Virus record (IMG/VR): IMGVR_UViG_3300023179_000009
Location: 1-64,000 of that record
Source of the DNA: a virus
Length of the DNA stretch: 64,000 nt
Reading direction: 5' to 3' (one strand)
The notes beneath the pieces are model-generated. The model worked only from the letters and a program-made list of their open reading frames with translations, did no database searches and was not told where the DNA came from. Both the position numbers and the translations under genes were made by a program. Shown here one piece after another: positions 7,125 through 59,237 of the stretch. How positions within the stretch are numbered: the stretch's first letter is position 1; every line of letters begins with the position of its first letter.

Positions 7125-7483
7125 TGTACGTTGTTTTTTCTAAAAATACGATTTTTTATTTAGGATCAAATCAAGACAATGCTATAAAAATTTTTTATTC
7201 TTTTTCTAATGTTGAACTTTTTAAAATTCAATCAAAAAAAGAATTAATTGATTTATTGAATTGTAAAAAATTAGATCCGATTGCCAGCGAAGAAAATTCT
7301 ATTTGTGTATCAAATTTAATAAAAAGAATTGAAAAATTAAATTTAGATAAAATAGATTCTAGCGATATTTTAAAAGAAAACACGGCAACCCAGCAAATCA
7401 GCACAAGGATTCCAAAGACTGTCTGTGCTGATTTTGTGGATCCCAACAAATCTTCTAGCCAGTATCAAGATTCGGATAACTAA
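7124..7483 (+). CDS. Hypothetical protein coupled to the giant glycosyltransferase
   Basis: A 119-residue protein of unknown family. It has an N-terminal beta-rich segment (MYVVFSKNTIFYLGS) and a Ser/Thr/Asn-rich tail. It starts within the stop codon of the upstream gene and ends 16 bases before the likely start of the 1705-residue glycosyltransferase. No signal peptide, cysteine motif or catalytic signature is visible. Confidence 0.5.
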   Translation: MYVVFSKNTIFYLGSNQDNAIKIFYSFSNVELFKIQSKKELIDLLNCKKLDPIASEENSICVSNLIKRIEKLNLDKIDSSDILKENTATQQISTRIPKTVCADFVDPNKSSSQYQDSDN

Positions 7484-7499
7484 AGATAGTGCGGTTGAG

Positions 7500-10400
7500 A
7501 TGATAAGATCATCAATATTACAAAATTTTACTTATCATTCTTGGCAATCAAGAAGTTTTCAAACAATTAAAGTAGAGGCAAAAGACGACTATAGTTTTGA
7601 GTCTACCTCAAGGCAATCTAGTAACTTTTTTTCTAAAGAAAAAGAAAAAAAGCAATTGCGGGGAGATATTTTAATATGCTCTCTGTACGCTGGAGGATTA
7701 AGCGGAACCGAGCAATACGTATACAGTTTGGCCAAGGAATTAGATCAACAAGGGTATGACGTTACAATTGCCAGCGAACATACAAAAGACATCAAGAGGT
7801 TACATAATGTAAAATATATCTCTATATCTGATCTTAGTGGTGATTCTTGCTTTAACATAATACACTTAAATCAATACACCGTTGCCCAGAGTATTTGCGA
7901 GATTCTTCCTCATACGCCAAAAGTTTACACTATCCATTCGGAGGTGATTCCTGGGGAGCTTCCTTATTTACATAGTTCTATAAAAAAATACATAGCAACT
8001 AGACCAAAAATTGTTGATTTACTGAATCAACAATTAAAGATACCTTTGGAAAAAATTGAATTAATTTATAATCCTATAGACGATAATATTTTTAACCAAA
8101 AAGATATCTCTCAAGATAATTATGTTGTTTTTTTTGAAACAATAAACAATCTCTCAAAAGAGGCAATTAAGGTTCTTGTTGACATGACAAGACAAGAGAG
8201 AAAACAACTTATATTAATAGGCTCAAATCAAGGAGATTTTTTAGATGAAATTTTGAAAAAAAATACTCATGTTCAACATTTTGAAGAAGATGAGTCATTG
8301 TATATCACTATGTTAAAGAAATGTAGTTATTCTGCAAGTTTATTAGTTGGAAGAGGTGCATTAGAGTCCTGGATGTGTGGTAAAAAATGTTTAATATTTG
8401 ACATAGATCAAAATGGAAAAATATTAAGCAAGTCTTTAATTGAAAAAAACAAAAGTGAAATTTGTGATTTTAAATTAAAAAATGTAGTTTCAAAAATTAA
8501 AAATTTATATTTTGATTTAAAAGTTTTGGTTAAGATACCAACAAAAAACAGAACGATTGATTTTCTTAAAGTTTTTGAGAAATATTATAAATTTACATCG
8601 GATCACAACAATACGCATTTTTTAATTTCTTTAGACACAAGTGATTCGGACGCTATTTTTGTGTCAAACAAAATGAAAGAATACCCAAATGTCACCGTGA
8701 TTGTTGATGAAAGCTACAGTAAAGTAAATGCCATAAACAGGGATATAAATGAATTTTCTAAATCATTTAATTGGGATATTATCATAGTGGGATCCGATGA
8801 TATGATTCCCCAAAAAGAAGGTTATGACAATATTGTAAGATCTAAAATAAAAGAAATTAACACAACCGATGCGGTTTTATTTTTTAACGATGGATTCAGG
8901 CAGGACACCCTTAATACGATTCCCATAATGGGCAGGAAGTATTATGATAGATTTGATTATGTTTATTCTGAGTCCTATCTATGTAATTATTGTGATAATG
9001 AATTTACTAAAATATCCAAGAAATTAAATAAAAGTCATTATTTTGAAGATGTAATTTTTAAACACGATCATCCTTTTAACTCCAAGGGCTTAAAGGGAGA
9101 AGATTTTGTTCATAACAATAATAAGAAATATGAAAATATAGATTTTAACACTTATCAAAAAAGAAAACAAACCTTATCTTTTATTCCAAAATTAATAAAT
9201 TGTGATTATCGTAAACCTTTTCAGTATCCAGGAATAACTGAAAAACAGTCTTTTTATAATCATTCTAATATTTTTGGACACCATGAAAATAAAGATTCCA
9301 TAAATATTTATTTTTCTTTTCCTTGGGCTAGTTTTTTGGATGATTTAAATAATGAATACATATCAAGCGATCAGTTTGATTATTTTTTCAATAAACACAT
9401 TAAAAAAATACAACACTACAAAGAACTTTGCATTGCATATAATAAAGAAATAAAAATACACACTGTCTGCCAACACATAGAATGGTTTAAATTAATCGAA
9501 GTTTGGGAACAAATAGGAATTAATCACGCTCATGTTTCGCATTTAACAAATAAATTCAAAAATAAAAATATTAAATTTTATCCATGGACTTTGATAGCTT
9601 GCAATGTAGAGAACGAAGCATCCAACAAGCAATTGAGCGTACTAGAAGTGGATCAAAAAGAATTTCTTTTTTCTTTTATTGGTAGTTATATTGAAAGCCA
9701 CCGATCCGATATCCGTTTGAGGATCAAGAGTTTGCTGTCTAAGTTGGTTGAAAAAAATGATTTTTATTTTGAACTCACAAACAAATGGTTTTTAGAAGAT
9801 ATAGTTTATGAAGAGCAACTAAAAAGTATTTTTTTAAATGAATCTTTTTATGAAAAGCAAGAAAAAAACATAATAAAATATAATGAAGTTTTATCTAAAT
9901 CTATTTTTTCATTATGCCCAGAAGGAACTGGGCCAAACACTTTAAGGCTATGGGAGAGCATGAGCGTTGGAGCAATTCCAGTTTTGTTTGAAAACGATTG
10001 GATTCCTCCATGTGTTGAGGGCTATGAATGGGAAGATCTTGTTGTGAAAGTATCTCACAAAGATTTTGAAAAATTTCCTGAGTTGTTAAGGAGTTTTTCA
10101 AAAGAAAAAATTCATCAAATGAGAAACAACTGTATAAACGCTTATATCAAATTTAGATTGTTGAATTGTTTTGATCAAAAATATAACAAATTAGAAGAAG
10201 AAGACAAAGAAGAAAAAATTATAGATTGTGATAAAATAATTAATTTATATACAACTTATTTTTGCCCAAAAGAAGAAGAAAGAAAAAAAGAATTAGACTA
10301 TTGTATAACAAAAAACATCAACAATCCTTATATTAATAATATATTTTTATTTTTAGATGATAAAACAAAAGAGTCCGATCTGTCCGATATTTTAGAAAAA

Positions 10401-12617
10401 AACCAACCTTTTTCTAGTAAAGTTTCTTTTATAAAAATAGACAAAATTCCAACCTATAAAGATTGGATAGACAATAAGACAAATGACGACTCAGTATCAG
10501 TTTTTACAAATGCTGATATTTATTTTGATGAAACAATTACAAAGATACCAGAATATTTAAAGAACGCAAAAAGTTTTGTTTGTGTATCACGTTATGAAGA
10601 CCTAAATGAAGGTGTAGAACTACACAAAACACCCCACTGGTCTCAAGATGTTTGGGCAATTAGATCTAATGATATAATTGATGATAATTTTAAAAAATCA
10701 TTAGATATTCCTACCGGCAAATATAGGTGTGATAATAAAATTGCATATGTTTTCACAATAAATGGTTGGGATTTATATAATCCTTGTAGAGATATAAAAT
10801 GCTATCATAAACATGAATCCAATTTAAGAAAATATGATGAATTAGATACTTCTATTTTTGGAGCAATAGCATTTGTCCACCCAACAGACAACCCGGACAA
10901 GCCATCCGATGTTGATATTGAAATAATGTCGCTTAAAACTAAAAATATTAAAAATTATAAAGTTAATTCATGGTTGGAGTCAGAAATTGATAAAAGAAAA
11001 AGTAATTTGCCTACAATAACAATTCCCCTGTACGGTGTGGAGGATAAATATTTTTATAGAACTAAAAAATGTGCTTTTTATGATTTTGTAAAATCTTGGA
11101 AAGATAGAGGCTATATCAATACCATTGAGTCGAATGAGTCAAATTATTTTTGGTGGGGCGGCAAAAATAATATACTATTATTCGACAGGGATTTGATAAT
11201 TAATTTAAAAGATGGAAAAAAAGATCCTCCTAGATGGATTGGTGAAATTGATTATAAATTTGGTTTTTTTGGAAATCAATATAATTTGATAAATGACAAA
11301 AATTTTAAATTTAGTGGATATTTTTCGTACAACCCTGTCGGCCTGGAGGAATTTAGAAAAAAGATAAGAAAAAATTTTGAACAAAAAAAATATGAGAGTG
11401 TTTTTATTGGGTCGATAGAGAATGAAACACAAGAGTATTTCCGACAGGAGTTTGTTGATTGGGGTCAGGAGATAGAATTTTATCATATAAGTGATAAATT
11501 AAATAAAAATGAAAAAAACAAATTTCAATTTGATGAATATCTTGAAATTATAAGTGATTCAAAATTTGGAGTTTGCTTTAGAGGAAATGGACCAAAGTGT
11601 TATCGAGACATGGAATATTTGGCACTTGGAGTCCCACTCATAATTACTGAGGGCGTAGAGGTTGATTATCCTGATTCTCTTCTTGAGGGGGTTCATTATT
11701 TTAAAGCAAAAAACAAAAGTGAAATAAAAAAAATAATTAAAGATGTCGGTCCAGATGATTGGCAAAAAATGTCTGCCGCTTGCTGGGAGTGGTTTGAAAA
11801 AAATGGTTCCATAGATGGCATTTTTAATAATTTAAAAAATTCGATAGATTCTTTAAACACAAAAGAAAAAAGACACAATGTTGTTTTTGTTAACGCCAAT
11901 CGTGGCGATGGTTTAGAAAGTGTTTCTTGCAAAAGTTGTTTAATTTTCAACCCTAAAGCAAAAATTATTTTTAATGATGACGATGAAGATCTAAGAGGAG
12001 ACGAGATAAAACTAGAAAAGAACGATATTATAGTAAATGATTTGCCAACTATTGGCGGTGAAGAAAATTATACTTTTTTAATAAAAGAAAAAGATGTTTT
12101 TAAATATTTAGAAAAAATTAAAGATTGCAACTTAGAAAAAAATAAAGATTTATTAAAATTATTCAATTTAAGATTTAATAATTTTAAAATAACAATATTT
12201 GATAACAAAAATCAGTTGGTTAAAAACCACACCAGATTGTTTAATAAATCAAATGGAAAATGCCTTTATTTAAACAAGGATGAAAAAGCAACGGCGATCT
12301 CTGATTTTGATTGGTCTAGAAGGTGTTCTTTAAAGTACAAACAAGTTTCAAAAGAATTTGAAGGCAAGTGTCAAATAATCTTTCCTGAGGTCTTTGCAAC
12401 TTTAATTTATAAAAAATATAATGAAATATACAATTTTGATTTAAGCAATCATTTTAATGATTTTTATTGCATTAACGAAAAAATTATACCAAAAGAAAGA
12501 GTTTTTGAAATTTGTAAATTATGGGAATTTGAAAATTGTGATTTAAAAATGATTAAAGGAAAAATAATAATAAATAAAGAAGTTACAAATTTTAATTATA
12601 ATTTAGAAAATGATTAA
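7500..12617 (+). CDS. Giant multi-domain glycosyltransferase
   Basis: A 1705-residue protein if it starts at ATG 7500; a GTG at 7425 would add 25 residues but overlap the previous gene by 59 bases. Domains in order: GT4-like GT-B half (about 55-330, LYAGGLSGTEQYVYSLAKEL); GT-A domain (about 341-560, with GSDDMIP as the DxD site near 432); exostosin-like GT47 domain (about 600-880, CPEGTGPNTLRLWESMSVGA near 805-825); another GT-A-like domain (about 950-1165, TNADIYFDE near 1001); a second exostosin-like domain (about 1170-1440, FRGNGPKCYRDMEYLALGVP near 1357); and an unassigned C-terminal region. It probably builds a defined oligosaccharide in one polypeptide. It has no membrane segment. A ribosome site is weak. 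Confidence 0.8.
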   Translation: MIRSSILQNFTYHSWQSRSFQTIKVEAKDDYSFESTSRQSSNFFSKEKEKKQLRGDILICSLYAGGLSGTEQYVYSLAKELDQQGYDVTIASEHTKDIKRLHNVKYISISDLSGDSCFNIIHLNQYTVAQSICEILPHTPKVYTIHSEVIPGELPYLHSSIKKYIATRPKIVDLLNQQLKIPLEKIELIYNPIDDNIFNQKDISQDNYVVFFETINNLSKEAIKVLVDMTRQERKQLILIGSNQGDFLDEILKKNTHVQHFEEDESLYITMLKKCSYSASLLVGRGALESWMCGKKCLIFDIDQNGKILSKSLIEKNKSEICDFKLKNVVSKIKNLYFDLKVLVKIPTKNRTIDFLKVFEKYYKFTSDHNNTHFLISLDTSDSDAIFVSNKMKEYPNVTVIVDESYSKVNAINRDINEFSKSFNWDIIIVGSDDMIPQKEGYDNIVRSKIKEINTTDAVLFFNDGFRQDTLNTIPIMGRKYYDRFDYVYSESYLCNYCDNEFTKISKKLNKSHYFEDVIFKHDHPFNSKGLKGEDFVHNNNKKYENIDFNTYQKRKQTLSFIPKLINCDYRKPFQYPGITEKQSFYNHSNIFGHHENKDSINIYFSFPWASFLDDLNNEYISSDQFDYFFNKHIKKIQHYKELCIAYNKEIKIHTVCQHIEWFKLIEVWEQIGINHAHVSHLTNKFKNKNIKFYPWTLIACNVENEASNKQLSVLEVDQKEFLFSFIGSYIESHRSDIRLRIKSLLSKLVEKNDFYFELTNKWFLEDIVYEEQLKSIFLNESFYEKQEKNIIKYNEVLSKSIFSLCPEGTGPNTLRLWESMSVGAIPVLFENDWIPPCVEGYEWEDLVVKVSHKDFEKFPELLRSFSKEKIHQMRNNCINAYIKFRLLNCFDQKYNKLEEEDKEEKIIDCDKIINLYTTYFCPKEEERKKELDYCITKNINNPYINNIFLFLDDKTKESDLSDILEKNQPFSSKVSFIKIDKIPTYKDWIDNKTNDDSVSVFTNADIYFDETITKIPEYLKNAKSFVCVSRYEDLNEGVELHKTPHWSQDVWAIRSNDIIDDNFKKSLDIPTGKYRCDNKIAYVFTINGWDLYNPCRDIKCYHKHESNLRKYDELDTSIFGAIAFVHPTDNPDKPSDVDIEIMSLKTKNIKNYKVNSWLESEIDKRKSNLPTITIPLYGVEDKYFYRTKKCAFYDFVKSWKDRGYINTIESNESNYFWWGGKNNILLFDRDLIINLKDGKKDPPRWIGEIDYKFGFFGNQYNLINDKNFKFSGYFSYNPVGLEEFRKKIRKNFEQKKYESVFIGSIENETQEYFRQEFVDWGQEIEFYHISDKLNKNEKNKFQFDEYLEIISDSKFGVCFRGNGPKCYRDMEYLALGVPLIITEGVEVDYPDSLLEGVHYFKAKNKSEIKKIIKDVGPDDWQKMSAACWEWFEKNGSIDGIFNNLKNSIDSLNTKEKRHNVVFVNANRGDGLESVSCKSCLIFNPKAKIIFNDDDEDLRGDEIKLEKNDIIVNDLPTIGGEENYTFLIKEKDVFKYLEKIKDCNLEKNKDLLKLFNLRFNNFKITIFDNKNQLVKNHTRLFNKSNGKCLYLNKDEKATAISDFDWSRRCSLKYKQVSKEFEGKCQIIFPEVFATLIYKKYNEIYNFDLSNHFNDFYCINEKIIPKERVFEICKLWEFENCDLKMIKGKIIINKEVTNFNYNLEND

Positions 12618-13288: not shown

Positions 13289-14254
13289 ATGAAATTTGAA
13301 CCCTGTTATGTTTGGCCGAATGAATATTTTCCTTTTAGGGTGTTTTTTAAAAATGAAAAATTAACAATTTTTATAATAGAAGGAATAGTACACAATTTTA
13401 ATTGGCTAAATAAATATAAAAATTTTATAAACGATAAACATTTTTTCTTTGTTTCTTGTCCTTGGTACATGAGCGAATTTCACGCTCATCATTATAATGA
13501 AATGTTCGAATTTTTGAATTTAAATAAAGATAATTTCTTTTTTCTTTTCAATTCAAATCAAGAAGAAAATTTTCTAAAAAATAAAGGATTTTTTGGAGAG
13601 GTTATAAACCAAAATTGCTGGATAAATGAAAATTTATATAAAGTTTGCGATAATGTGATCAAAAAATACAATGCAATTTTGATAGCATGCAAGGTTGCTT
13701 ACAAAAGACACTATTTGGCCAATAAAATAAAAAAATTAGCGATACTAAATGAAGGTTGGGGAGATGAAAAACAATTGAACTATAAAATGCCCGAGTGTGA
13801 TTATCAAAATAAAAATAATTTAAGTGTTGAAGAGATTGTTTTAAAGATAAATGAATCCTACTGCGGTTTATTCTTGTCAGCCGAGGATGGATCTTGTGGA
13901 TCTTCAAGTGAATGTTTACTGTGTGGCATACCAGTTGTCTCCACGCAGTCTGTTGGGGGCAGAGATCTATGGTATAACGAATATAATTCTTATGTTTGTG
14001 AGTCTGACGAGGAGGATGAGGTTTGGGAAGGTGTTGAATATTTTCTAAGAAATAATCGTGATCCTAATAAAATTAGAAATGATCACATAATATTAGCCAA
14101 AGAACAAAGGAAAAAATTTATTAATTGCCTTCAAAAAGTTTTTGACAATCATCAAATAGACTTTGATGCTAAAACTTATCTTAATTTAAACTATTTTAAT
14201 AAAATGTTAAAATCACAAAAACCTAATTTTGGTGAAATTTTTGCAAAGGAATAA
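13289..14254 (+). CDS. GT4-like glycosyltransferase (GT-B fold)
   Basis: A 321-residue protein. The C-terminal half has the GT4 donor-binding region: LFLSAEDGSCGSSSECLLCG followed by IPVVSTQSVGGRD, the usual E-x7-E-type region. The N-terminal half is a divergent acceptor domain with FFVSCPWYMSEFHAHHYNE. It has no membrane segment. No ribosome site is visible; a TATAAT box sits only 3 bases before the ATG. It is part of the rightward sugar cluster. Confidence 0.75.
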   Translation: MKFEPCYVWPNEYFPFRVFFKNEKLTIFIIEGIVHNFNWLNKYKNFINDKHFFFVSCPWYMSEFHAHHYNEMFEFLNLNKDNFFFLFNSNQEENFLKNKGFFGEVINQNCWINENLYKVCDNVIKKYNAILIACKVAYKRHYLANKIKKLAILNEGWGDEKQLNYKMPECDYQNKNNLSVEEIVLKINESYCGLFLSAEDGSCGSSSECLLCGIPVVSTQSVGGRDLWYNEYNSYVCESDEEDEVWEGVEYFLRNNRDPNKIRNDHIILAKEQRKKFINCLQKVFDNHQIDFDAKTYLNLNYFNKMLKSQKPNFGEIFAKE

Positions 14255-24777: not shown

Positions 24778-25254
24778 CTAGTCAGAGAATACTGTACACC
24801 AATACTTTCTTTCATTTTTGTCTAAAATCATTCCAAAGCCAACTTTTTTGTATCCTGCTCCTAGTATGTTCCATCTATGCCCTGGACTCCACATCCAAGA
24901 ATTAACTACGCTTTCTTCATTGTCTTGCCCCAAAGCAATATTTTCCCCGACCAAATTTGTGCCGCTATTTACTTTTCTTAAATCGCTCATCTTGGAATGG
25001 TAAAGAGAATTTTTTTCTACCATTTTTTTAACATGAACTTCTGCGTATTTGCACAAATTCTTATCTATTACCAAGGGTTTGTAACCCTTTTCTACTCTCA
25101 TTTTGTTGTGTAGTTCTAATAGATTTATTTGGTATTTTTGATAAATTTTGTCTTGATTAAATAAAAAATCACTTTTAGATTTGTCTTGATGAACATTGTT
25201 TTTATTACATCCAAAAAATGCAATAAAAACAATTATAAAAAAAAGTCTAAACAT
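24778..25254 (-). CDS. CAP/SCP-domain lipoprotein
   Basis: A 158-residue protein with AGGAGG 5 bases before the start. The signal MFRLFFIIVFIAFFGC has a lipobox cysteine at 16. The mature part is a CAP (YkwD-like) domain: LLELHNKMRVEKGYKPLVI, GENIALGQ, WMWSPGHRWNILGAGYKKVG and a final YWCTVFSD. Bacterial CAP proteins are exported; roles are unclear, though cell-wall or protease functions are proposed. It sits in a leftward operon with the zinc peptidase lipoprotein and the 25332 gene. Confidence 0.88.
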   Translation of the reverse strand: MFRLFFIIVFIAFFGCNKNNVHQDKSKSDFLFNQDKIYQKYQINLLELHNKMRVEKGYKPLVIDKNLCKYAEVHVKKMVEKNSLYHSKMSDLRKVNSGTNLVGENIALGQDNEESVVNSWMWSPGHRWNILGAGYKKVGFGMILDKNERKYWCTVFSD

Positions 25255-35290: not shown

Positions 35291-35464
35291 ATGAATTTAA
35301 CGGAATTATACTCAAAAATACAAAAAAACCCTTTAAACAAAGCAATCTATTGGAAGCTGATTGATGTTTACAAATCTCTGGGCATGAATAATGAGTCGGC
35401 TGCTTTCGAATATTTAATTAAAAATAAATTTAATGATAACAATACAAATATTGACAAAAAATAA
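35291..35464 (+). CDS. 57-residue TPR-like miniprotein
   Basis: A short gene, MNLTELYSKIQKNPLNKAIY and KLIDVYKSLGMNNESAAFEY, that forms one TPR-like helix pair. Its 3' end overlaps the start of the 35433 glycosyltransferase by 32 bases in another frame, which implies translational coupling. It has no clear ribosome site. TPR units occur in the C-terminal part of the downstream protein too, so it may be a partner or a split-off N-terminal module. Confidence 0.55.
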   Translation: MNLTELYSKIQKNPLNKAIYWKLIDVYKSLGMNNESAAFEYLIKNKFNDNNTNIDKK

Positions 35465-36380
35465 CGACAAAACAATTAGGAAAACACTAGAGTCGGTTTT
35501 GTTTTTGAAGCCAAGAATTATTGTGATTGATTACGGCAGCATTGATGATACCTTAAATATATGTGAAGAATTTAAAGCAAAAATCATACCCGCCTCTGGA
35601 ATTGATAGAAACGAAGCCAGAATTATGGCTTCGAGCGATTCTGGGTGGAATTTATGGTTAGAACCATGGGAAATTTTACTTAAAAAAATAGACATGACCA
35701 AAATGATGGATAGTAATTTTGGTTATGTGAGAATTATTCAAAACAATATTTTAAATTGGGAAATAAGACTTTGGAATAAAAAGTGTAAAATTATAAATCC
35801 AGTTTTTGAAACTATAGAGACAAAACAAAAAATAGAGTTCACATCAGGGATCTTTTCTTCAATTGGTGGTGTTAATCTATCGGAACATGTTGATTTGTTG
35901 GAAAAATGGATATCGTTTGACCCGTTATCAAAAAGTCCTTACTACTACAAATGTTGTTTTTTACTATCTGAGGGTAGGTATGATGAATTTATAGAAATGT
36001 CTAAATACTACTTATTTTTAGATAAAACCAATAGTGTGTCTTCTTTGATGATAAGATATTATTTATCGATTGTTTTTTTAACACAAAAAAAAATGGTAGT
36101 TCCAACCTTACAAAATATAAACATATGTTTGTGCAAAAAACCATTAATGGCGGAGTTTTGGTGTGTATTGGGAGATGTTTATTATCATCTAATGAATAAT
36201 TTTTATTTTGCAAAAGAATTTTATGAAAATGCTATCGTTTTAGGATCAAAAAGATTAGATAAAGATATTTTTCCTATGGATATTAAAAAATATAAAAAAT
36301 ATCCAGAGTTGATGATTGATAGTTGTAATAAAATTTTAAAAAAAGAATCTAATTACAAGAAACTAAAAAATACCGTCTAA
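35433..36380 (+). CDS. GT2 glycosyltransferase with TPR-like C-terminus
   Basis: A 315-residue protein. It begins with the GT2 pattern seen in SunS-type and related enzymes: MITIQILTKNNDKTIRKTLE, RIIVIDYGSIDDTLNICEEF, DRNEARIMASSDSGWNLWLE, with the metal-binding site replaced by WLEPWE. The C-terminal half is helical, TPR-like (MAEFWCVLGDVYYHLMNNFY). Such proteins often glycosylate peptides or proteins, so it may act on virion proteins. The ends overlap the small TPR gene (5') and the convergent 36363 gene (3'). Confidence 0.78.
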   Translation: MITIQILTKNNDKTIRKTLESVLFLKPRIIVIDYGSIDDTLNICEEFKAKIIPASGIDRNEARIMASSDSGWNLWLEPWEILLKKIDMTKMMDSNFGYVRIIQNNILNWEIRLWNKKCKIINPVFETIETKQKIEFTSGIFSSIGGVNLSEHVDLLEKWISFDPLSKSPYYYKCCFLLSEGRYDEFIEMSKYYLFLDKTNSVSSLMIRYYLSIVFLTQKKMVVPTLQNINICLCKKPLMAEFWCVLGDVYYHLMNNFYFAKEFYENAIVLGSKRLDKDIFPMDIKKYKKYPELMIDSCNKILKKESNYKKLKNTV

Positions 36381-49442: not shown

Positions 49443-49648
49443 TGTGATTTAGATCCTAAACGTATACCGTGAATAAGTGCTGTGAGCCACGCAGCGGCAC
49501 ACCAACTCTCAAAATTAACTTTTAATTCACTTGATTTAAAAAGAATTTGAATAGACCATATTGTAAATATTGGTCCCAAAACAACAAGTGGCACAAAAAG
49601 CAAAAATATTAAAACAAATACAATTATTTTTTTATCATTATTATTCAT
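49439..49648 (-). CDS. Small two-helix membrane protein
   Basis: A 69-residue protein: after MNNNDKK a long hydrophobic helix (IIVFVLIFLLFVPLVVLGPI) continues to about residue 35, and a second weaker one (WCAAAWLTALIHGI) lies near 50-62. It could be a holin-like or accessory membrane protein. It overlaps the trypsin-like protease by 8 bases and the 49068 gene by 4, so the three are co-expressed. Confidence 0.6.
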   Translation of the reverse strand: MNNNDKKIIVFVLIFLLFVPLVVLGPIFTIWSIQILFKSSELKVNFESWCAAAWLTALIHGIRLGSKSQ

Positions 49649-50387
49649 TTTTTATTTTTTCTTTAATCCAATTTTTAAACAAACTTAATCTTGTGTGGCC
49701 TGATTCATCAGTGTAGTTTGAGTTGGGCATTTTGTCAACAGCCATAACACAAGAGTTAATACCTGCCAGTTTGTTTCCTAAAAACAAACCCCCTCCACTA
49801 TCTCCACTACAAATTAAAAATTCTAAAGAAGTTTTATTAGATACCGATGGGGAGCAAACTAACAAATGACGATCAATATAGTCTACTTTGTTTGATCCAG
49901 ATCTTCTTTTTCCGTCATCTTTTGTGGCCCCGGTAGAGAAGTTTCCAGTTAACCCCCAGCCAGATATTGAGCATATTTGCCCAACTTCATCATTGTTATC
50001 ATAGATATCTGGATAAAAATTTAAACCTATTTCTCTTTCTGATTTGCATATTGCCAAGTCATAGTGACCAAATTTATTTTCTTCAAAATCTTCATGACAT
50101 ATAATTTTTTCAAGTTGAATTATTTTTTCATCAACTTTTATTAAAGATGATTTAGAGTTTTTTACAACGTGTGCTGCGGTAAGAACCCATCTAGGAGATA
50201 TTGCAACCGCCGAAGCGCAATATTTTTTACCATCCTGGTATTCTCCGCAAATTTTTAGAATATAATAAAATTTTTTACCATATTCAACATAATTTGAGTC
50301 CGGGGTGTTGGGATCAATTGTTCCCCCAAACAAATTGTTTGGTTGAATCCAAAAACAAAAGAATAAAGCAATTAAAAATCTTGCCAT
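49641..50387 (-). CDS. Secreted trypsin-fold serine protease (S1)
   Basis: A 248-residue protein with a Sec signal (MARFLIALFFCFWIQPNNLF). The catalytic triad is complete: His73 in VLTAAHVV, Asp110 in HYDLAICK and Ser197 in CSGDSGGG. The position equivalent to the specificity residue 189 of chymotrypsin is Leu, so trypsin-like Lys/Arg cleavage is unlikely. Several Cys fit disulfides. It would act in the periplasm or outside. S1 proteases are rare in phages. Upstream on the minus strand is CATAAATATAGGAT, which resembles a T4 late promoter. Confidence 0.92.
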   Translation of the reverse strand: MARFLIALFFCFWIQPNNLFGGTIDPNTPDSNYVEYGKKFYYILKICGEYQDGKKYCASAVAISPRWVLTAAHVVKNSKSSLIKVDEKIIQLEKIICHEDFEENKFGHYDLAICKSEREIGLNFYPDIYDNNDEVGQICSISGWGLTGNFSTGATKDDGKRRSGSNKVDYIDRHLLVCSPSVSNKTSLEFLICSGDSGGGLFLGNKLAGINSCVMAVDKMPNSNYTDESGHTRLSLFKNWIKEKIKNE

Positions 50388-50838: not shown

Positions 50839-53619
50839 TCACGATTCGCACGAAGCACAAGCAAGAATCGATCTGGTTAGTTCTTGTGCTGGGTTGGCAC
50901 TTCTTTGATAATAAAAAGTTTTTATTCCCATCTCCCAACCTTCTATCAACAAGGAATTAACTTGTTTTGGAGGAGTTGCTGGTGGAATCATCAAATTCAG
51001 AGACTGTGCTTGGTCTATGTATTTTTGACGCTGTGCGGCTTGTATTATTATCTCTTTTTGACTTATTTCTCCAAAAGTCTTAAATACATTTTTTTCTTCT
51101 TGAGTTAAAAAATCCAAATGCTGCACTGAGCCTCCTCTTATAAGGATGCTTTTCCACACTTCATCATTGTGTTTGTCATATTTTTTAAGAAGTTCTTTTA
51201 AATATGGATTTTTGTAAGTAAATTTACCTTTAGCAAGATTTTTAACAAAATAATTGCTATTTAACGGTTCGATGCTTGGACTTACTTGTCCCAAAATAAA
51301 TGAACTTGATGTCGTTGGAGCAACGGCAAGAGTTGTAACGTTTCTTCTACCGTAACCCTTTAACAATTCCGGCTCCCCAAAAATTTTTGCCAATTCTTGG
51401 GTTGCATTGTCAGCTCTTTCTTTTATTGTTTTCCAGATGTCTACGTTCAACAACTTTGCTTGCATTGATTCAAAAGATATCATCTTAGATTGAAGCAAAC
51501 TATGCCAGCCTAAAACGCCCATACCTAATGCTCTTTGATTTTTTGCAAAGTTATGAGCCGCAGACATAAATTTAACGTCTTTGGTTTTATTTATAAACTC
51601 TTCGTTAACGGCGTCTAAGAAATAGATCAAGGTTTCTACTGCGTCGGTTTCTTTGATTTCATCCCAATGAAGGAGATTTAAAGATGACAGGACACAAACA
51701 AAACTATTGTTTTCATCGGAAAAAAGTTGGATTTCTGAGCAGTTGTGTGTTAAAAAACCATTGCAAACCCACAGGTGTTCTGGCGTGTTCACTTTGCAAC
51801 AATAAACATCTTCTCTTCCAATATACTCTATAGAATTTATTTTATAGAATTTTTTTGTATTATCTCGATATTTTTTTTCTTCTAATTCAATGCCTTTTCT
51901 ATCTAAAAATCCGGTGTTTTTATTAAATTTTAAGGCATTATTTTTATTTCCTATAATTAATCTCCAACAATCTTTAGTTTCGTAATATTGATACGAACCT
52001 TTTCCATTTGGCAAAAATTGTTTTCCTTTTTTTCTTAAAATTCTTATACTTGATTGCATTCCAAGATTGGCTAAAATAATTTGAACTTCTCTAAGGAATT
52101 CTTTATTCACATTTGCCAGAGAGATTGTCATTGGGTTACCAGCGGATTTAGATTTAAATGCTGTTCCATCGGTATAGAATAGCCCCCTGATGTATTGCCA
52201 TTGAGTTTCTTCGTTTGATTCCCAGATCCAGTTAGGGACGCAACCTTTTTTAAAATTCAAAGATTTGCTAAGAGCATTACTGCTTAGCCTTTTCTTTTTA
52301 ACTTTACTTTGTAAAACTTTACAATCGGTAAAGTTTGCATTATCGTATGTTCTATTTGTTCTCTCAGAGAATTGGGTGTTATATTTTTCACAAATATAAT
52401 TATGACAATCTTGAATTTCTTTGATTAAATCAAAGTCTTTTTCCCAAACATCTAGCATAATTCTATCTTTATTTTGGGTTCCATCTCCTTGATAAATTCC
52501 TAACAAAAAAGCTTCTTTGGGCATATTTTTATTACCAAATAGACCTTTTTGAGTTTGAATTGCAACCTTTTGACCTATTTTGAGATCTTTGCATTCGACG
52601 CTCTTAACGTGTACTATTTGTTTGTTTTCACTTTTTAGATGCTCTCTTCTATCCAATACACAAATTTTGTGATGTCTCGTAACGGTGTGTGTCATACCGT
52701 TGTCAAGTGTTATTTTGTAAACTTTTGCATTTTTTTCTATTAATTTCATTTCTGAGGCTGAGACTATATTTTTATTATCAAAAAGTTTTAATTCTCCGCC
52801 CTGTTTGTGGAGTTCTTTTGCAGTTAATAATCCCCTGTTTGAGGGAACTCTTTGATCGCCGGTTACACACAAATTACTAGCTTTTATCTTTAATTTTTTA
52901 TCTTTGTATACTTGTGGAGCATTTTTATTTGCCGTATCGACAAACATAATGTATGGATACCCAGTTTCGAATCTTTTTTGAATTACTTTTGCCCAAATTT
53001 TTCTTTTTTCTTTATCTCCTTCAATAAGTTCTTTCATAAACTTATCTGTTACGGTGATCCCTATGCTCATATCTTGAATAGGATGACCTTCTGAGCGTAT
53101 TTGTAAGAACTCATCAATATCAGGGTGTTCTATAGGCAAATAAGCAGCAAATGATCCACGCCTAGCTGAGCCTTGGGAAATAACATTGGCAACTTTATCG
53201 TATATTTCCATGAAATGAACAGCACCGCTTGATTCTCCTCCTACGCTAATCTTAGCTCCTCGTTCTCTTAAATCTCCAAAATATCCAGATGTTCCCCCTC
53301 CTAGTTTGCTCATCATTCCAACCTCAGAAGCTTTATCTAAAATTGCTTCCATTTGATCTTTGACTAGACTTCCAAAACAAGAAACGGGCAATCCACGCTT
53401 ATTACCAAAGTTTGTCCAAATGGGCGTTGCGAGGCTGTAGAAGCCCTTGCTCATGTAATTTTGAAATTTTGCTGAGAATCCTTTTATTTTTAAGATTTTT
53501 TCAGCATTGTCTGAAATTTGCTTAATTCTTTCTTCAGGAGAAACCCCTTCTTCAAGGTATCCTCTTTCCAAAAATAAACGACTGTGGCTATTAAGCCAAT
53601 AGTATTCTTTGTCTGACAT
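50839..53619 (-). CDS. nrdA: Ribonucleotide reductase alpha subunit (NrdA) with intein
   Basis: 926 residues as translated; 550 after removal of a 376-residue intein. The reductase lacks the N-terminal ATP-cone. Conserved active-site parts are Cys81 (GLPVSCFGSL), the N-L-C-x-E thiyl site (Asn249-Leu250 joined to Cys627 and Glu629), FVCVLSSLNLLHW with the partner Cys, RRNVTTLAVAPTTSSSFILG, KTFYYQRS with the radical-path tyrosines, and C-terminal CASCES for re-reduction. The intein is at 251-626. It makes dNDPs for phage DNA. No ribosome site is seen near its ATG. Confidence 0.96.
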   Translation of the reverse strand: MSDKEYYWLNSHSRLFLERGYLEEGVSPEERIKQISDNAEKILKIKGFSAKFQNYMSKGFYSLATPIWTNFGNKRGLPVSCFGSLVKDQMEAILDKASEVGMMSKLGGGTSGYFGDLRERGAKISVGGESSGAVHFMEIYDKVANVISQGSARRGSFAAYLPIEHPDIDEFLQIRSEGHPIQDMSIGITVTDKFMKELIEGDKEKRKIWAKVIQKRFETGYPYIMFVDTANKNAPQVYKDKKLKIKASNLCVTGDQRVPSNRGLLTAKELHKQGGELKLFDNKNIVSASEMKLIEKNAKVYKITLDNGMTHTVTRHHKICVLDRREHLKSENKQIVHVKSVECKDLKIGQKVAIQTQKGLFGNKNMPKEAFLLGIYQGDGTQNKDRIMLDVWEKDFDLIKEIQDCHNYICEKYNTQFSERTNRTYDNANFTDCKVLQSKVKKKRLSSNALSKSLNFKKGCVPNWIWESNEETQWQYIRGLFYTDGTAFKSKSAGNPMTISLANVNKEFLREVQIILANLGMQSSIRILRKKGKQFLPNGKGSYQYYETKDCWRLIIGNKNNALKFNKNTGFLDRKGIELEEKKYRDNTKKFYKINSIEYIGREDVYCCKVNTPEHLWVCNGFLTHNCSEIQLFSDENNSFVCVLSSLNLLHWDEIKETDAVETLIYFLDAVNEEFINKTKDVKFMSAAHNFAKNQRALGMGVLGWHSLLQSKMISFESMQAKLLNVDIWKTIKERADNATQELAKIFGEPELLKGYGRRNVTTLAVAPTTSSSFILGQVSPSIEPLNSNYFVKNLAKGKFTYKNPYLKELLKKYDKHNDEVWKSILIRGGSVQHLDFLTQEEKNVFKTFGEISQKEIIIQAAQRQKYIDQAQSLNLMIPPATPPKQVNSLLIEGWEMGIKTFYYQRSANPAQELTRSILACASCES
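51742..52869 (-). mobile_element. Intein with LAGLIDADG homing endonuclease in nrdA
   Basis: Residues 251-626 of the nrdA product. It begins CVTGDQRVPSNRG (block A, Cys1) and has a block B-like THTVTRHHKI. Two LAGLIDADG motifs follow (LLGIYQGDG at 372 and IRGLFYTDG at 477), and it ends with VYCCKVNTPEHLWVCNGFLT and His-Asn before the extein Cys. It splits the gene exactly before the catalytic thiyl-radical cysteine, a typical intein choice of an invariant site. All splicing residues are present, so it should be active. Confidence 0.92.
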
Positions 53620-57816: not shown

Positions 57817-57868
57817 GAACTTTTCCTAAAAAACCATTCTATCACAACAAGTTTTTTAAGAAAAGTTC
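57817..57868 (-). promoter_or_regulatory. Inverted repeat covering the gp47 ribosome site
   Basis: On the minus strand GAACTTTTCTTAAAAAAC (57851-57868) pairs with GTTTTTTAGGAAAAGTTC (57817-57834), with one G-T pair and a 16-base loop. The second arm contains AGGA, the ribosome site of gp47, and ends at its ATG. The structure could hide the site in transcripts coming from the upstream Gly/Pro gene and be absent from a shorter message starting in the loop. Confidence 0.6.
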
Positions 57869-58220
57869 ACTTCATTAGAAATGATTTTTCTTGTTTTTTT
57901 TCTTTTAGTTTTGAATTTGAATCATCTAATTTTTTTGAAAAATTTTTATCTAAAAAATTAGATAATGCATCCCAAGCATTTAAATTTTTAGGAATAGGCG
58001 GGGCCGAATTTGCTGGAGGACCGCCCAAGCCACCTACTGGAGGACCACCTAAACCTGGAGGACCACCCAAGCCACCTCCTGGAGGACCACCTAAACCTGG
58101 AGGACCACCCAAGCCACCTCCTGGAGGACCACCTAAACCTGGAGGACCACCTAAACCTGGAGGACCGCCTGCTGGTGGATCTGCTTCGTTAAGAATTAGA
58201 AATTGTTTGAAATCCAACAT
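57867..58220 (-). CDS. Gly/Pro-rich protein with capsid-targeting leader
   Basis: A 117-residue protein starting MLDFKQFLILNEADPP. The leader has the same form as in 49068 and 60159, with LNE as predicted protease site after residue 12. Residues 13-70 are GGPPGLGGPPGGGL-type repeats (14-residue period), and the C-terminus is basic (DKNFSKKLDDSNSKLKEKKQ). The opposite strand is also open over the repeats, but lacks a leader and a good start. No ribosome site is seen; TATAAT ends 3 bases before ATG. Probably an unstructured packaged protein. Confidence 0.6.
   Translation of the reverse strand: MLDFKQFLILNEADPPAGGPPGLGGPPGLGGPPGGGLGGPPGLGGPPGGGLGGPPGLGGPPVGGLGGPPANSAPPIPKNLNAWDALSNFLDKNFSKKLDDSNSKLKEKKQEKSFLMK
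58020..58175. repeat. 42-bp tandem repeats in the Gly/Pro gene
   Basis: Units of the form GGAGGACCACCTAAACCTGG are repeated with shorter variants through about 58020-58175 and form a 42-base higher-order period near 58060-58145. They encode the GGPPGLGGPP series on the minus strand. Such repeats are prone to copy-number change. Confidence 0.75.
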
Positions 58221-58277
58221 ACTATTATATATCAAAACCCAGTTGAAAACTCGGTTGCTTATCGGAGATTATTGTTT

Positions 58278-59237
58278 ATGAATAAATTAAGTTACTCAAA
58301 GTTATTTTTATTTTTGTTTCCTTTAATATTGGGCTGTCAGGGTGGAGTAAACGAAAAAATTCAAAATTGTGGTCTTCCTTTTGATATGCAAGAAAATAAT
58401 ATAGCTGCTTTGTTTACAATGACCAATGAAAGCGGGAGGATGGAAAATTTAAAAATGATGGAAAGTATATTTGAAGATGGATCTTTAGGATTTAAAGTTG
58501 AATCTCACCACAACAAGCCATCCAAATACATTTATGACAAATTAAATGAATTATCTAAACAAGTTGGAGAATATGGAACTTTGTTGGTTTATTTGAATAG
58601 TCACGGAGGAGGAAGCGGCAGCAGATTTGGGATGACATCAAGTGATGGATCTTTTAAGTTCAGCAAAGCATTAAATTCAATAGCACAAGCCAATAAAGTT
58701 AAAAGACTTATAGTGTTAATAGACACTTGCCACGCATCTGGAGGAATACAAGAAGGATTTCAAGGAAAAGAAAAAAAAATAGAAAATTTAAAAACAAGAC
58801 TCCCCGAACTGCCCGATTATTATCCAAAGGAGGAGGGTGATTATTTGTCTAGTTTTTTTACAACTAAGAAAATTGGAGATGATTATTTTTTTGTTGATTA
58901 TGGCTCTAAGAGCGGTGCCTATAGTGAGTCTTTAATAATTGCTTCTTCAAGTGCGGAAGATCTTTCTATGAGGGGTGCTTTTGCATCTAGATTGAAAAAA
59001 ACTTTTGAAAAAATAAAAAATAATAAAGAAATATCTATTGCGGAATTTCTCAAAGAATTTGCAAATTTACACGGAAACACGAACCAAAAACCTCATTATA
59101 AAGTTATACCATTTGAGTCTATGTTAGAAGAGCCATTGTTTAAAAATCCACTTTTGAGAGAAATACCAATTATTGATAGGCAACATCCAGATTTGAAAAT
59201 ACCAAGAGGATTCATACCATCGCCTGAAGAGGATTGA
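58278..59237 (+). CDS. Caspase-like (C14) cysteine protease lipoprotein
   Basis: A 319-residue protein starting MNKLSYSKLFLFLFPLILGC, a lipoprotein signal with lipobox cysteine at 20; GGAG is upstream. The mature part has the caspase-fold dyad: a hydrophobic strand then LVYLNSHGGGSGSRFG (His near 109), and LIVLIDTCHASGGIQ (Cys near 151), spaced about 40 residues as in C14 and related clan CD peptidases. A segment IIASSSAEDLSMRGAFASRL resembles the region after the catalytic Cys in bacterial members. It would be tethered to the outer leaflet of the inner or outer membrane. Phage-borne lipoprotein caspases are unusual. Confidence 0.8.
   Translation: MNKLSYSKLFLFLFPLILGCQGGVNEKIQNCGLPFDMQENNIAALFTMTNESGRMENLKMMESIFEDGSLGFKVESHHNKPSKYIYDKLNELSKQVGEYGTLLVYLNSHGGGSGSRFGMTSSDGSFKFSKALNSIAQANKVKRLIVLIDTCHASGGIQEGFQGKEKKIENLKTRLPELPDYYPKEEGDYLSSFFTTKKIGDDYFFVDYGSKSGAYSESLIIASSSAEDLSMRGAFASRLKKTFEKIKNNKEISIAEFLKEFANLHGNTNQKPHYKVIPFESMLEEPLFKNPLLREIPIIDRQHPDLKIPRGFIPSPEED

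Follow-up and report, generated by a model that had tools for sequence, protein, structure and literature searches.

Most of what is known of caspase-like proteases in bacteria concerns cytoplasmic effectors of stress and anti-phage responses, and the caspases described from viruses belong mainly to viruses of eukaryotes. A search of the open literature, most subscription papers lying outside its scope, turned up no description of an exported caspase encoded by a phage. The gene compared with these systems here lies in a window of 64 kb, the first part of the 458,813-bp record IMGVR_UViG_3300023179_000009. The record comes from a large phage of the contractile-tailed type; genes for the tail sheath, the baseplate hub, SbcD/SbcC-like proteins and both ribonucleotide reductase subunits surround the caspase-like gene, and a terminase is encoded elsewhere in the 458.8-kb record. 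The gene runs from ATG to TGA on the plus strand (58278-59237) and encodes 319 amino acids. A Shine-Dalgarno-like GGAG (58264-58267, plus strand) 10 nt 5' of the ATG supports the start at 58278. The idea of a shared upstream promoter found no support. The preliminary description had reported an open reading frame here with the motifs NSHGGG and DTCHASGG behind a lipobox signal, and both the sequence and Pfam bear this out.

The gene between sbcD and the caspase-like gene (57867-58235, minus strand) is rich in Pro-Pro-Gly-Gly repeats, and a similar Met/Gly/Pro-rich gene adjoins sbcD in the related contig L002. On the other side lies a putative phage metallopeptidase (60746-61243, plus strand; PF18894, 6.6e-31). 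The gene for the ribonucleotide reductase large subunit (50839-53619, minus strand) is split by an intein bearing a LAGLIDADG endonuclease domain. A 1730-aa protein with a glycosyltransferase domain is encoded at 7425-12617 (plus strand), and glycosyltransferase-like genes are also found at 13289-14254 and 35433-36380. The gene at 24778-25254 (minus strand) encodes another exported protein, a predicted lipoprotein in which a CAP domain (cysteine-rich secretory protein) was recognised at 8e-19. The window further encodes a second exported protease, of the S1A (trypsin-like) serine-protease fold (49641-50387, minus strand; PF00089, 3e-21). It contains TAAHV and GDSGGG motifs but lacks the Asp that determines specificity in trypsin. 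Beyond the window, positions 277156-279772 of the record (L248:2157-4773) hold a compact Cas12-like protein of 541 amino acids, matched by Cas12f/Cas12u models at 4e-12 and containing a Cas12f1-like TNB domain, and then a CRISPR array of 10 repeats of about 36 nt (ATTGCAGTACTTAAAACAAAAGATGAGTATGTCAAG) with spacers of roughly 22-40 nt, one of them duplicated. Gene and array together are a phage-borne type V CRISPR system. Directly after the array comes a gene for an MscL-type mechanosensitive channel (279803-280138 of the record).

The earlier assignment of the 319-aa protein to the clan CD cysteine proteases is confirmed by Pfam and by profile-profile comparison, together with a predicted structure, and the protein is thus a caspase-fold (Peptidase_C14) relative. 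Pfam Peptidase_C14 (PF00656) matches residues 53-261 with E=2.4e-9, its 37.7 bits exceeding the curated cut-off of 21.4, and C14 is matched by 16 of 19 family members, the best at 4.2e-12. When the family profile was aligned by hhalign to an independent C14 profile built from nine bacterial caspases, the probability was 97.8% (E=1.2e-12), with His, Cys and the ASS strand lining up. An AlphaFold model based on the 19 members has a mean pLDDT of 75.5, above 90 in the core and low in an insert after the catalytic Cys (about residues 157-215). In this model H109-G110 and C151 come just after the strands 101-107 and 141-149, respectively. The comparison with metacaspase folds that had been proposed turned out positive: the best PDB matches found by Foldseek are Trypanosoma brucei metacaspase 2 (6.7e-7), GSU0716, MALT1, a fungal metacaspase and mammalian caspases, all with a probability of 1.00 and with moderate TM-scores of 0.3-0.6. 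A model from the single sequence (pLDDT 38) was meaningless, as was its fold search, and both were set aside. The caspase-like protein matched none of the families in the PADLOC defence models, which cover the known anti-phage caspase systems, and for the EACC1-associated caspase (NCBIfam NF047832) it reached 18.6 bits against a cut-off of 140.

When it comes to the catalytic residues, NSHGGG (residues 107-112; 58596-58613, plus strand) contains the putative catalytic His109 and aligns with the C14 His-Gly motif, while DTCHASGG (residues 149-156; 58722-58745, plus strand) contains the putative catalytic Cys151 and the S1-pocket residue Asp149 and aligns with the DxCH of C14. In the p10-like part, LIIASSSAEDLSM (58932-58970, plus strand) is by alignment the counterpart of the C14 'ASS..E.S' strand. 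H109, D149 and C151 are invariant across 23 family sequences, and close pairs show strong purifying selection with dN/dS of 0.04-0.12; the motifs can therefore not be due to chance. Asp149, two residues before Cys151, occupies the position that in meta-, para- and orthocaspases favours a P1 Arg or Lys, and that is Gln in mammalian caspases. It is the sole S1 position safely assigned in the phage family, and because of its placement the protease probably cuts after Arg or Lys.

Signal peptides were assessed by motif and hydropathy. At the N-terminus, MNKLSYSKLFLFLFPLILGC, a hydrophobic core is followed by the lipobox ILG|C (residues 17-20), which makes this stretch a predicted type II signal peptide (58278-58337, plus strand) with Cys20 as the first residue after the cut. 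A comparably hydrophobic N-terminus is found in just six of the 70 ATG open reading frames of the window. A hydrophobic segment is present near the N-terminus of each of the 23 family members, with a mean hydropathy over 11 residues of 2.28-3.37. Behind it, 11 of the 23 have an A/G/S|Q cleavage-like site of the signal peptidase I type, and three proteins (L104-L106) have a signal ending in A|E. A clear lipobox occurs in the window member alone, and that of L122 is borderline. Since most relatives have ends of the signal peptidase I type, membrane anchoring is no property of the family; export appears to be its common feature and lipidation a local variant. Of the exported lipoprotein suggested in the preliminary description, the export is thus supported for the whole family, while the lipobox, judged by motif, holds for the window protein and not for most of its relatives. 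Under the Q-rule (PMC5837995), the signals ending in 'A|Q' could point to a Bacteroidota host. This assignment was kept as a lead only, because the window member has no such end and Shine-Dalgarno-like sites in the window exceed background (0.33 versus 0.10), a poor fit to such a host. Taken together, the invariant dyad, the selection and the export are best read as signs of an active cysteine protease located beyond the inner membrane, both the activity and the site of action being predicted from sequence.

Relatives of the protein, mostly at full length and with 43-58% identity, were found at 26 loci, all of them in viral contigs, the longest of which measures 381 kb. A scan of the viral contigs with the window protein alone gave nothing, and the family emerged only with alignment-guided searches of 2.9 million contigs, which yielded 6, then 21 and then 26 loci. 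Among 50,697 GenBank phage records, in contrast, tblastn found none, whether the query was the window protein or one of its relatives. Planctomycete genomes, which had also been suggested for a search, were covered by two pattern-then-tblastn scans of 84,980 bacterial and archaeal genomes (GTDB) using different motif patterns, and no close relative was found in any of them. Since both scans depend on an initial pattern of 8-10 residues, distant cellular relatives could escape them, and the family is for this reason described as phage-only so far. A plasmid search gave one distant caspase only. The single match to the motif pattern GAYACNTGYCAYGCNWSNGGNGG was a DTCHACGG antisense to a phage capsid-like open reading frame and was discarded as chance.

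Among the 25 other caspase-bearing contigs searched, eight have a terminase-family match, one of them weak, and one further contig has RIIA. The tail sheath of the window is shared by just four of the 25 (62-66% identity), and the grouping of the window protein with these four has values of 58/29 in a tree that is poorly resolved at depth. None of the 48 contigs found via the tail sheath or SbcD contains the C14 gene, and the SbcD locus of L002 keeps a similar Pro/Gly-rich gene and lacks the caspase gene; many contigs are fragments, so that absence from a single one counts weakly. The neighbours of the gene vary among phage lineages. On these grounds the gene looks accessory, repeatedly moved or lost.

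With neighbourhoods that differ in this way, no neighbour names a pathway. An MscL gene is present in 11 of the 26 caspase-bearing contigs (this genome and ten others) compared with one of 17 sheath relatives, these lineages not being independent, and a patatin-like phospholipase gene lies near seven loci. At eight loci the caspase gene is directly adjoined by a gene for a protein of about 210 residues with a zincin-like HELCH/HELAH motif and no confident Pfam match (L109:7405-8088, L111:8934-9578, L114:8352-8984, L122:8846-9565, L147:1190-1819, and downstream of the caspase gene in L104-L106). Together with the second exported protease these genes are weak pointers to work on the membrane or envelope. 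A fixed pair of caspase-like and S1A protease was considered and dropped, since an S1A homologue occurs in only six of the 26 contigs and the S1A protease has at least 372 relatives of its own in viral contigs; tblastn found none in GenBank phages. No lysis gene lies consistently beside the caspase gene among the loci, RIIA being about 4 kb away in one lineage only.

The general reading of an exported protease acting on host envelope proteins during infection was adopted as the best explanation, and it is a reasonably likely one. The infected cell would export the caspase-fold cysteine protease through the Sec pathway, the window protein probably becoming lipid-anchored to the envelope and most of its relatives probably being soluble periplasmic enzymes. 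The enzyme would then cut after basic residues, host envelope proteins being the most likely substrates. The simplest benefits would be an envelope weakened or remodelled for release, or the removal of surface proteins. That the same phage also exports the S1A protease and the CAP-domain lipoprotein counts in favour of this reading. Within it, help in lysis ranks above superinfection exclusion, and the latter above counter-defence; the preliminary description had raised all three roles. As a lysis or release factor the protease would late in infection degrade proteins such as outer-membrane-anchoring lipoproteins or an S-layer, complementing endolysin and holin. This is a tentative proposal; the conserved export agrees with it, and MscL and the patatin-like phospholipase could act on membranes jointly with the protease, but no endolysin or spanin neighbour was seen at the loci and the MscL-bearing contigs do not represent independent lineages. 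Superinfection exclusion, in which the protease would cleave or mask the infected cell's surface receptors or its proteins of the injection channel, seems rather less likely. Superinfection-exclusion lipoproteins already known work by binding and not by proteolysis, and the lipobox that would fit such a role in the window member is missing from most of the family. Phage-encoded lipoproteins with a role in superinfection exclusion do, on the other hand, provide precedents (PMC3952083; PMC9586334).

Inactivation of an envelope defence protein, or of an exported host inhibitor or protease, would suit the accessory, patchy distribution over several large-phage lineages and the other arms-race genes of the genome, such as the compact Cas12 with its CRISPR array. 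However, no target is known, and the bacterial defences characterised so far are mostly cytoplasmic, which makes such counter-defence unlikely. It is quite improbable that the product is part of the virion, is injected, or serves as a maturation protease of the prohead type, its hydrophobic N-terminus having some purpose other than export. In one lineage (L143, L148) the gene does lie beside same-strand genes that may be structural, with an RNA ligase/tail-fibre attachment gene not far away, but a signal-peptide-like N-terminus in every one of the 23 members, many with cleavage-like sites, argues against it. Least probable of all is an inactive remnant or pseudo-protease with a binding or decoy role: bacterial orthocaspase variants devoid of the His/Cys dyad exist (PMC6426788), but in the phage family His, Cys and Asp never vary, and the low dN/dS of close pairs points the same way. 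The envelope-acting protease can also be taken further, in that several large-phage lineages may have gained and kept a caspase-like executioner of their own, which would be made during infection, exported to the periplasm and there take the host envelope apart or reprogram it. This bolder version is doubtful; if true, viruses of bacteria would be using the caspase fold in a way that mirrors the anti-phage caspases on the host side.

A conserved, exported and apparently active family, confined so far to large phages, suggests that phages also use the caspase fold, in another compartment. It offers a testable protein for the action of large phages on the envelope, a little-explored side of phage biology, and biochemists may gain from it a simple Arg/Lys-specific protease with a single domain.

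Compared with the prokaryotic caspase homologues (orthocaspases, PF00656), the phage family likewise has a p20-type fold, a His/Cys dyad, D-x-C-H and the ASS strand, at about 14-21% aligned identity to bacterial caspases. It differs from the orthocaspases in having no adaptor, EAD, WD40 or TPR domain, in being exported according to its N-termini, and in being found in phages only so far. Metacaspases and paracaspases, which have an acidic residue two positions before the catalytic Cys just as the phage family does, provide the best fold matches of the model (T. brucei MCA2, 4afp; MALT1), but the identity is 9-16% and the phage protein adds an insert of about 60 residues after the catalytic Cys and a signal peptide. 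Peptidase C13 (legumain, GPI transamidase) gives weak matches in 17 of 19 members, the best at 8.4e-4, and GPI transamidase chains match the family around the His and Cys motifs (0.0056); the window protein itself scores under the C13 cut-off, and C14 fits much better. In the viral structure library BFVD the significant matches come almost entirely from caspases that eukaryote-infecting viruses encode. The caspases of giant viruses, ascovirus and baculovirus are likewise virus-encoded caspase folds, but they share only 10-15% identity with the phage family, which sits in tailed phages and is predicted to be exported. The sole tailed-phage-labelled protein among the BFVD matches at E<=0.001 is the uncharacterised A0A8S5MXG5 of Myoviridae sp. 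ctWaE18 (5.1e-4), with 11% identity and a TM-score of 0.37. The fold itself is thus already known, and the novelty lies in the family, a subfamily of C14 that is exported and belongs to large phages.
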